From contig DYLQ01000006.1 in the NCBI GenBank assembly GCA_020722015.1, forward strand, positions 1 through 64,000: DNA of 64,000 nt. Reading direction: 5' to 3'. This DNA comes from Thermotoga sp. Lineage in GTDB: Bacteria > Thermotogota > Thermotogae > Mesoaciditogales > Mesoaciditogaceae. The notes below the pieces were generated by a model. That model was not told where the DNA came from, did not search any database, and saw only the letters and a program-made list of their open reading frames with translations. Positions 40,296 to 42,388 of the stretch are shown here, one piece after another (within the stretch, counting starts at the first letter, position 1; the number at the start of each line of letters is the position of its first letter). Both the position numbers and the translations under genes were made by a program.

Positions 40296-40648
40296 GGGGG
40301 CGAAATGGTTTCGACGGGATATGTGTTTTGCGAGAAGCGAGCCAGGGGTGCCTACCTCCCTGTGAAAAAGGTTCGAATGATAATAAACGTCAATCCTGAA
40401 TACGCACTCGCTGCTTAATAGTTAAGTAGCCGTCCTTGTATCTTTTGCCCGGAGAGATACATAAGGGCGTCAGAATTCCGGACTACACGAATGAAGATGT
40501 TCCCGTTCGTTCGTGGAAATAAAGGGAACTTGGTTGGATGTCCCGTGCCTAATGCGGGATATTCGATGACGATAAACATAGGCTGCGCTCGGAGAAGCTT
40601 GCACGGCAGGTATTTCGGACGTGGGTTCGATTCCCATCGCCTCCACCA
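40296..40648 (+). ncRNA. ssrA: tmRNA
   Basis: This RNA rescues stalled ribosomes and tags the product for proteolysis. The 5' end GGGGGCGAAATGGTTTCGACGGG and the 3' end GTGGGTTCGATTCCCATCGCCTCCACCA form the tRNA-like domain (GGGGGCG pairs with CGCCTCC), and CCA is encoded. The tag frame reads AAC GTC AAT CCT GAA TAC GCA CTC GCT GCT TAA, giving a tag that ends NVNPEYALAA, with a typical hydrophobic ALAA terminus. Hairpins in the middle part fit pseudoknots. At 353 nt it is a one-piece tmRNA. Confidence 0.97.
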
Positions 40649-40673
40649 GTTTTCAAAAGGTGGAGATGATTCT

Positions 40674-41570
40674 TTGACAGACAAAGTAGATGAAACTATT
40701 TCAAAAGAAAATCCCACTTTAGATCAAATTCGAACGGTGAAAAAATCTATGTCTGGCGCCATTTCGGATTCAGTTTTGAAGGTTTCAAAACTGGCGATTA
40801 AAGATGGTTTCCAAGTTTACGAGGCGATTATAAATTTGGTAAAAGATGTCGCTATGAAATCTGCCAGAATTTATATGGTTTTCAAAAGAATAGAAGAAGA
40901 TGGAAACCAGATAATATTTTCTGAACCGTCTGTCGTGGATATAGAAAAGGAAAATTTCGATAAGACGGTTAAATTATTTATCATAACAAAAAAATCTACC
41001 TCTGAAATCGAGAGTACGATATCAAATATTTCGGAAATTGAAAGTGTATCTGTAGAAAAATTTACCGCCGAAGGTTATCAAACGGAAATCCCCGCGGTTG
41101 CCTCAATTTTACCTCCAAATTCTCCTGTTATCAAAGTGCTTTTGGTGAAAATAGGCGATCAAACTTACGCTATTGCCATTTCAAATATAGAAAGATTGAT
41201 TTCTCTTGATTCACAAAATGTAAAAACTATCGAGAAGATCGAAATTGCATCTGTTGAGGAAGAGATCATCCCTCTTTTGGACATGAGAGATTATTTTGGA
41301 AATGTTAAAATTTCAAACGCAAGGCAGAATGCTGTGATTGTAGAACATGAATCTGTGAAATGCGGACTCGTCGTTGATGATTTCATAAAAAAGGATGAAG
41401 TGACCGTAAAAACTCTTGGAAAAATCTTCAAAAACGCAAAAGAATTCTGTGGCGGAGCAATTCTCCAAGATGATTCAATCGCATTGATGATGGATATTCC
41501 ATATCTTGTTGAAAAATTCTCTCAGGTTTTAAAGATAAATGTGAACATAGGACAACAACATGACATTTAA
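40674..41570 (+). CDS. Kinase-less CheA-like protein (P2 plus P5 only)
   Basis: This 298-aa protein aligns by eye with two separate parts of Thermotoga maritima CheA. Residues 40-130 (KSARIYMVFKRIEEDGN..PSVVDIEKENFDKTVKLFIIT) match the CheY-binding P2 domain, and residues 155-295 (VIKVLLVKIGDQTYAIAISNIERL..CGLVVDDFIKKDEVTVKTLGKIF..GGAILQDDSIALMMDI) match the CheW-like P5 domain. P1 with the phospho-histidine, the P3 dimerisation helices and the P4 kinase are missing, so it cannot be a histidine kinase. The TTG at 40674 follows GGTGGAG; the track ORF starts inside tmRNA. It overlaps cheW by 11 nt. Confidence 0.85.
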   Translation: MTDKVDETISKENPTLDQIRTVKKSMSGAISDSVLKVSKLAIKDGFQVYEAIINLVKDVAMKSARIYMVFKRIEEDGNQIIFSEPSVVDIEKENFDKTVKLFIITKKSTSEIESTISNISEIESVSVEKFTAEGYQTEIPAVASILPPNSPVIKVLLVKIGDQTYAIAISNIERLISLDSQNVKTIEKIEIASVEEEIIPLLDMRDYFGNVKISNARQNAVIVEHESVKCGLVVDDFIKKDEVTVKTLGKIFKNAKEFCGGAILQDDSIALMMDIPYLVEKFSQVLKINVNIGQQHDI

Positions 41571-42018
41571 GATAACTCATGAACCGTTTGATGTTCTGAC
41601 TTTTAAATTGGGTGAAAAGGAATACGCCATAGATGTCGGGATAACGGAGATGATCCTTGGAAAATGTAAGATCTTCAAAGTTCCGAATTCTCCCGATTTT
41701 CTCAAGGGCATCGTTAATTTAAGAGGAGAAATAATCCCCGTTTTTGATTTAAAAAGCATGATCAATTTAGAAGATAGGGAAAATTCTTGTTCAAATGTCA
41801 TAATTGTGAAGATTGATGCGGATAAGACGGGATTTCTTGTCGATGAAGTTACAGAGATCATGTCGATACGATCTGAATTTACAACGATGAAGATCGTTAG
41901 TGCTAATTACATCAAAGGTGCTATAATAAAGCAAAACAGGTTGATTTCATTTCTTGATCTCCAAGACTTGCTTGTGGGGAAAATGAGTGCTTTTGAGCTG
42001 GGAGGAAAAGTTGGGTAA
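41560..42018 (+). CDS. cheW: Chemotaxis coupling protein CheW
   Basis: CheW links chemoreceptors to CheA. This 152-aa protein is one CheW domain: FDVLTFKLGEKEYAIDVGITEMIL, VPNSPDFLKGIVNLRGEIIPVFDLKSM (the conserved NLRG..IPV..L motif), and TGFLVDEVTEI. It starts within the end of the CheA-like gene, and cheY begins within its own end. Confidence 0.93.
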   Translation: MTFKITHEPFDVLTFKLGEKEYAIDVGITEMILGKCKIFKVPNSPDFLKGIVNLRGEIIPVFDLKSMINLEDRENSCSNVIIVKIDADKTGFLVDEVTEIMSIRSEFTTMKIVSANYIKGAIIKQNRLISFLDLQDLLVGKMSAFELGGKVG

Positions 42019-42388
42019 AAAAGTTTTAGTTGTTGACGATGCCGCTTTTATGAGGATGCTGTTAAAAGATATGATAACAAAGGCTGGTTACGAAATTGTG
42101 GGCGAGGCTGCAAATGGTAAAGAGGCAATTGAAAAATACAAGGAATTGAATCCGGACATTGTAGCCATGGATATGATAATGCCGGAAATGAACGGTATAG
42201 AAGCCACAAAAGAAATAATGAGATTAGATCCAAACGCAAAGATAATCGTTTGCAGTGCCATGGGCCAACAAATGATGGTTATCGAAGCAATGCAAGCGGG
42301 AGCCAAAGACTTCATAGTCAAACCTTTTCGACAAGATAAGGTAATTGAAGTTTTATCTAAGGTTGTTAACACTCCCACACTTAAATAA
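42011..42388 (+). CDS. cheY: Response regulator CheY
   Basis: CheY carries the phosphorylation signal to the flagellar switch. This 125-aa single receiver domain has the acidic pair VVDDAAF, the phospho-acceptor in IVAMDMIMPEMNG, IIVCSAMGQ and the lysine in FIVKPF. The TTG at 42011 has GGAGG seven bases upstream and gives the standard length. The terminator overlaps its last codons. Confidence 0.95.
   Translation: MGKKVLVVDDAAFMRMLLKDMITKAGYEIVGEAANGKEAIEKYKELNPDIVAMDMIMPEMNGIEATKEIMRLDPNAKIIVCSAMGQQMMVIEAMQAGAKDFIVKPFRQDKVIEVLSKVVNTPTLK

Follow-up and report, generated by a model that had tools for sequence, protein, structure and literature searches.

What is left for a CheA protein to do once its kinase has gone? 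This question is raised by one gene in the stretch of DNA analysed here (the window, 64,000 nucleotides), which comes from a 1.93-Mb draft genome in 166 contigs, 96% complete (G000 below). We have compared it with its sister genome, the MAG FK4.bin83 (G001), which is also a draft about 96% complete, and with Athalassotoga saccharophila NAS-01 (G002) and the MAG ARK-11 (G003), which share the same genus placement. The locus reads as follows.

40296..40648, plus strand: tmRNA gene (ssrA), called by ARAGORN; ends 25 nt short of the P2-P5 start codon
40656..40667, plus strand: Shine-Dalgarno-like AAAGGTGGAGAT, picked out by comparison of the window, G001, G002 and G003; putative function
40674..41570, plus strand: kinase-less CheA P2-P5 gene, 298 aa, TTG start, stop included; ortholog in G001
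40815..41057, plus strand: P2 (CheY-docking) domain, residues 48-128; Pfam PF07194, E=3e-21; Foldseek match 1u0s_A
41136..41513, plus strand: P5 (CheW-like) domain, residues 155-280; Pfam PF01584, E=3e-21; Foldseek match to the P5 of 4jpb_A
41560..42018, plus strand: cheW, 152 aa, overlapping the 3' end of the P2-P5 gene; a fragment in G001
42011..42388, plus strand: cheY, 125 aa, overlapping cheW; best start TTG at 42011, after GGGAGG at 42000-42005

The frame at 40674-41570 is intact, and Pfam, AlphaFold and Foldseek agree with the sequence-only reading in which its product keeps P2 and P5 and lacks P1, P3 and P4. Pfam recognises P2 and the CheW-like P5 in the 298-residue protein and nothing else, with no match in it to Hpt, H-kinase_dim or HATPase_c; the CheA of A. 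saccharophila, by contrast, does match H-kinase_dim (P3). AlphaFold predicts two domains with confidence (mean pLDDT about 93 and 88), joined by a linker that is disordered at 134-149. The first is matched by Foldseek to the P2 of Thermotoga maritima CheA (1u0s_A, a structure solved in complex with CheY; TM 0.96, target-normalised, 0.9 Å), so that P2 is indeed present in the structure prediction, and the second to T. maritima CheA P5 (4jpb_A; TM 0.90, 1.3 Å), CheA P5 also providing the best PDB sequence matches of this domain. The protein is not a standalone CheW, having an N-terminal P2 domain as well, nor is it CheV, as had been rightly anticipated, since the 298 residues contain no match to the Response_reg (receiver) domain. 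No remains of P1, P3 or P4 were found at the locus, where the gap between tmRNA and TTG is 25 nt and that between P2 and P5 about 20 residues. An architecture of P2 and P5 alone is thereby confirmed as real, and its proposed coupling to cheW and cheY is borne out by the position of both genes, downstream and overlapping.

Where did such a gene come from? At the orthologous locus A. saccharophila carries a full CheA of 662 aa, and both it and ARK-11 have the order (tRNAs)-tmRNA-cheA-cheW-cheY-fliO-like-fliP-rng-amylase. The window has this same order with P2-P5 in the place of cheA and with fliO/fliP missing, and FK4.bin83 has the order of the window, minus an intact cheW, with the same P2-P5 architecture at the same locus (57% identity to the window protein). 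Conserved gene order, together with alignment to the full CheA, shows that the P2-P5 gene is the ancestral Thermotogae cheA trimmed in place, with P1 and P3-P4 deleted. Because the two genomes share this form while their congener has the full set, P1, P3-P4 and fliO-like/fliP were probably lost before the two lineages split. The adjacency of tmRNA and cheA is common to FK4.bin83, A. saccharophila and ARK-11 too, and in genomes of the genus Athalassotoga the cheA start codon follows the tmRNA by about 25-30 nt. No terminator-like site was seen between the tmRNA and the cheA or P2-P5 start (the 40296-40676 region) and, given this and the short gap, the che operon is probably cotranscribed with the tmRNA. 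In other genera of the family, the tmRNA is not adjacent to cheA. The start region itself has an unusual pedigree: AAAGGTGGAGAT aligns with the K-G-G-D codons of the P1-P2 linker in A. saccharophila CheA, and the new TTG start sits at the site of a Pro codon in that old linker. In both the window and FK4.bin83, to judge from the alignment, the former K-G-G-D codons now appear to act as a ribosome-binding site.

The search for P2 and P5 proteins without a HATPase domain that the sequence-only reading had proposed found the short kinase-less frame in just these two genomes among the 103 searched from the class Thermotogae, 79 of which have P2. Short cheA frames in G073 and G024 were considered as further cases and rejected, each being a complete cheA split by a frame break. 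These single breaks in two draft genomes (G073, G024; L125, L126) are probably sequencing or assembly errors. In G006, cheA is truncated by the end of a contig. Outside the Thermotogae, a pattern-based scan of genome contigs gave no further proteins of P2 and P5 only.

What else has changed in genomes that carry this gene? A. saccharophila and ARK-11 each have a full CheA, FlhA, FliM/FliN, CheC, CheR and six MCP-signal matches. In the window genome and FK4.bin83, Hpt domains, FlhA, FliM/FliN, CheC and CheR all went undetected, as did canonical chemoreceptors, since no MCP passed the Pfam cut-off; nothing of a flagellum or of a partner CheA was therefore found in them, and their lineage appears to have lost flagella. 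Gene absences from drafts are never proof, and here the same whole set is missing from two drafts about 96% complete. It had been suggested that the protein might pair with a kinase encoded elsewhere. This finds no favour in the data, for no full CheA was found elsewhere in the draft: the window genome has CheW domains in two places only (the P2-P5 protein and cheW), its 12 HATPase_c matches are taken for ordinary sensor kinases, GyrB, MutL and further ATPases that are not CheA, and no protein turned up that joins a CheW domain to a kinase. The survivors are P2-P5, CheY and one syntenic MCP with a rewritten tip, to which the window genome alone adds CheW. As the output of CheY, the flagellum was rejected (FlhA and FliM/FliN are undetected in both genomes), and so were type IV pili, whose PilB/PilT-type ATPases occur equally in the flagellated congeners and show no link to CheY. 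PilB- and PilT-type ATPases are encoded on G000:C88 and G001:C22 (L117, L120, L123, L124), and type IV pili may be what these flagellum-less organisms have left by way of a surface appendage.

CheY keeps its acidic pair, phosphorylated Asp, Ser and Lys, while the stretch that reads VTMDITMP in nearly all of the Thermotogae CheYs listed has become VAMDMIMP in the window and VAIDTIMP in FK4.bin83. Common to the two are T to A at D-2 and T to I at D+2 (in receiver domains, the D+2 residue affects phosphorylation chemistry); in the last helix, QxxR has become RQDK. In FK4.bin83, cheW is a pseudogene, given that a match to about 24 C-terminal CheW codons is all that is left in the spacer between P2-P5 and cheY (tblastn within the spacer, E=1e-10), and both P2-P5 and cheY are intact there despite this. 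The coordinates of this remnant and of the last MCP in each genome are as follows.

L046:11320-11450: cheW pseudogene in G001, tblastn match to the CheW C-terminus
L091:6854-9154 (G000:C156): last MCP of G000, below the Pfam cut-off
L092:7481-9820 (G001:C59): last MCP of G001

The retained MCP is the ortholog of one A. saccharophila MCP, and follows dtd-like and relA/spoT-like genes in the same order. Its hairpin tip, DQAKILALNIAIRSSKEKS--DQYAFLES in the window genome and RQAKILALNVAIKSAKSGS--DEYAFLES in FK4.bin83, has been rewritten in both relative to their relatives, with a common two-residue deletion at the turn and with loss of the Glu and the Arg that contact CheW and CheA in the E. coli serine receptor. 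In addition, both have lost the part of the first methylation helix that is otherwise conserved, which fits with the loss of CheR.

Are these genes maintained, or are they simply slow to disappear? We estimated omega by codon maximum likelihood, with a script of our own, on the G000 and G001 tips of the four-genome tree ((G000,G001),(G002,G003)). Each tip has a length of about 0.4 neutral substitutions per nucleotide site (t per codon / 3) and is therefore unsaturated; the internal branch is saturated and was left out of inference. Tip omega was 0.19 for P2 (omega=1 rejected, p=6e-7), 0.43 for P5 (p=1.5e-3) and 0.057 for CheY (p=5e-17), while the retained MCP gave 0.26 overall (p=3e-33), with its sensor part also under purifying selection. 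Among the neighbours, rng gave 0.054 and the amylase 0.084, which places the constraint on CheY close to that on a housekeeping gene. Moreover, a neutral frame of 298 codons would be expected to collect about 10 stops per lineage, and to stay intact with a probability of about 3e-5 to 5e-5. P2, P5, CheY and the MCP have thus been under purifying selection, and have not been drifting, since the two genomes split, and P2-P5 is a maintained protein rather than a pseudogene. In the A. saccharophila and ARK-11 tips, P2 and P5 have an omega of about 0.03; relative to these congeners, the window and FK4.bin83 domains are more relaxed and evolve faster, and part of this signal could be slow decay.

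The two domains have not fared equally. With conserved columns defined on 23 Thermotogae CheAs, and interface retention judged by column conservation alone, P2 keeps 15 of 16 columns per genome with none lost in both, whereas P5 retains 27 of its 44 per genome, and 13 losses are common to the two (Fisher p=0.013). Identity between the window genome and FK4.bin83 is 76% for P2, 80% for CheY and 51% for P5, whose alignment is gap-free. Taken together, retention and identity mean that the CheY-docking part has been kept and the array-coupling part changed. With conserved docking residues lost from both the MCP tip and P5, the two proteins may no longer touch each other directly.

The best reading, to which we give about an even chance, is that P2-P5 is a repurposed, kinase-free CheY-docking adaptor, the remnant of an ancestral cheA cut down at flagellum loss. 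P2 is a known CheY-docking domain, that of E. coli CheA having a Kd for CheY of about 0.5 µM (PMC5705603). The trimming of cheA would have accompanied the loss of the flagellum in a sublineage of Athalassotoga, and it is this context, flagellum loss with erosion of the ancestral cheA in place, that goes beyond the sequence-only reading. By homology and by its conservation, P2 would still bind CheY, and P5 might link the complex to the altered MCP or some other partner, either by itself or, in the window genome, together with CheW. Docking and release, rather than phosphotransfer from CheA, would then govern CheY, possibly tuned by phosphorylation of CheY from a non-CheA source such as acetyl phosphate or another histidine kinase. 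Of the roles previously proposed, that of a phosphate sink is improbable for a protein that retains no domain able to be phosphorylated. The best fit is a protein that holds CheY but does not phosphorylate it, P2 and CheY being the best-conserved parts. The receptor arrays at which CheY was supposed to be held are the weaker half of that proposal, as the altered tip of the only MCP left, the conserved residues lost from P5 and the loss of cheW in FK4.bin83 make a canonical array unlikely. Counting against the adaptor are the docking residues lost from P5 and the MCP tip, that cheW loss, the disappearance of FliM/FliN and CheC, and the faster evolution of P2 and P5; the P2-P5 form is, moreover, carried by two genomes only, both of them draft MAGs about 96% complete. 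We would entertain, as a less probable and more ambitious possibility, a receptor-to-CheY pathway free of CheA kinase, in which the altered MCP controls the docking and release of CheY by P2-P5, binding itself is the signal, perhaps gated by acetyl-phosphate-driven phosphorylation of CheY, and the output is non-flagellar.

Could the whole matter be an artefact? The window does come from a draft MAG in 166 contigs, in which a frameshift or assembly error might have split a normal cheA, yet the second MAG has the same form in the same gene order, and the missing domains turn up neither at the locus nor anywhere else in the genome, with no leftover kinase domain; G073 and G024, by contrast, are what split but complete cheA genes look like. 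This refutes the artefact, to which we give practically no credence. We also think it very improbable that P2-P5 hands CheY to a histidine kinase other than CheA, or has as its partner a CheA kinase that the draft assembly failed to capture. Such partnerships would make sense of the phosphorylation site and catalytic residues that CheY has kept, and several ordinary sensor kinases are available in the genome, but we found no link between P2-P5 and any of them, and a missing CheA would require two assemblies about 96% complete to have missed the same genes, when neither has an Hpt and the window genome has no third CheW-domain gene.

Another idea is that of a decaying relic, a frame that survives through slow loss and a strong constitutive tmRNA promoter and has no current selected role. 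It is favoured by how much of the system has already gone (flagellum, CheA kinase, CheR, CheC, most MCPs and, in FK4.bin83, all but a fragment of cheW), and by the relaxed constraint on P2 and especially P5 relative to the congeners. It is partly refuted by the rejection of omega=1 for P2, P5, CheY and the MCP on the post-split tips, and is hard to square with the stops expected under neutrality or with a CheY as constrained as rng; the cheW fragment, meanwhile, makes plain that a gene no longer needed at this locus does erode. On balance, we find a relic improbable. Nor do we favour, while according it a small chance, a free cytosolic buffer or regulator in which P2 holds CheY, P5 merely provides a folded scaffold or a surface for dimerisation, and the altered MCP acts in some other pathway. 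Such a buffer would suit P2 and CheY as the best-conserved pair, the loss of array consensus from P5 and the MCP tip, and a cheW that is dispensable in FK4.bin83. It would leave unexplained why P5 is free of indels between the genomes and still under purifying selection, and why both genomes keep this MCP beside P2-P5 and CheY, all other MCPs having been lost.

How does the proposed adaptor compare with what is already known? ParP uses ParC to anchor arrays at the pole, and is not known to contain a P2 domain. Like P2-P5, it is kinase-less, and its C-terminus joins chemoreceptor core units (PMC5706961). CheV is another kinase-less adaptor, with a CheW-like domain tied to CheY-type signalling (PMC12691637); it carries its own receiver, whereas P2-P5 carries a receiver-docking domain and CheY is separate. 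Rhodobacter sphaeroides CheA3 likewise has no P3 and no working P4 and has kept P5 (PMC3591291; PMC10782961), but it retains P1 and partners with the kinase CheA4, while in the window genome neither an Hpt nor a partner CheA was found. The Thermotogae CheA of the T. maritima type, as in the A. saccharophila ortholog, shares the orthologous locus, P2 and P5, and the cheA-cheW-cheY order; in comparison, P2-P5 lacks P1, P3 and P4, and with them the phosphorylation site, the dimer domain and the ATPase. A limited search of the open-access literature found no description of a kinase-less protein of P2 and P5 only. In a survey of 13,673 CheA sequences, P1, P3, P4 and P5 were present in all and P2 in fewer than half (PMC10782961); since this survey treats the kinase as part of the definition of CheA, kinase-less remnants could be missed. 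Here the pattern is reversed, with P1, P3 and P4 removed and the supposedly optional CheY-docking domain kept.

A. saccharophila with its full CheA, the window genome with P2-P5 and CheW, and FK4.bin83 with P2-P5 and no CheW form a natural series, which makes the idea directly testable. The retention of P2-P5, CheY and an altered receptor suggests that a kinase-free receptor-to-CheY adaptor has outlived swimming in these two hot-spring-type bacteria. If the remnant works, then the docking of CheY serves a purpose in its own right, with no need of phosphotransfer by CheA, and signalling through chemoreceptors can persist after kinase and flagellum have gone.
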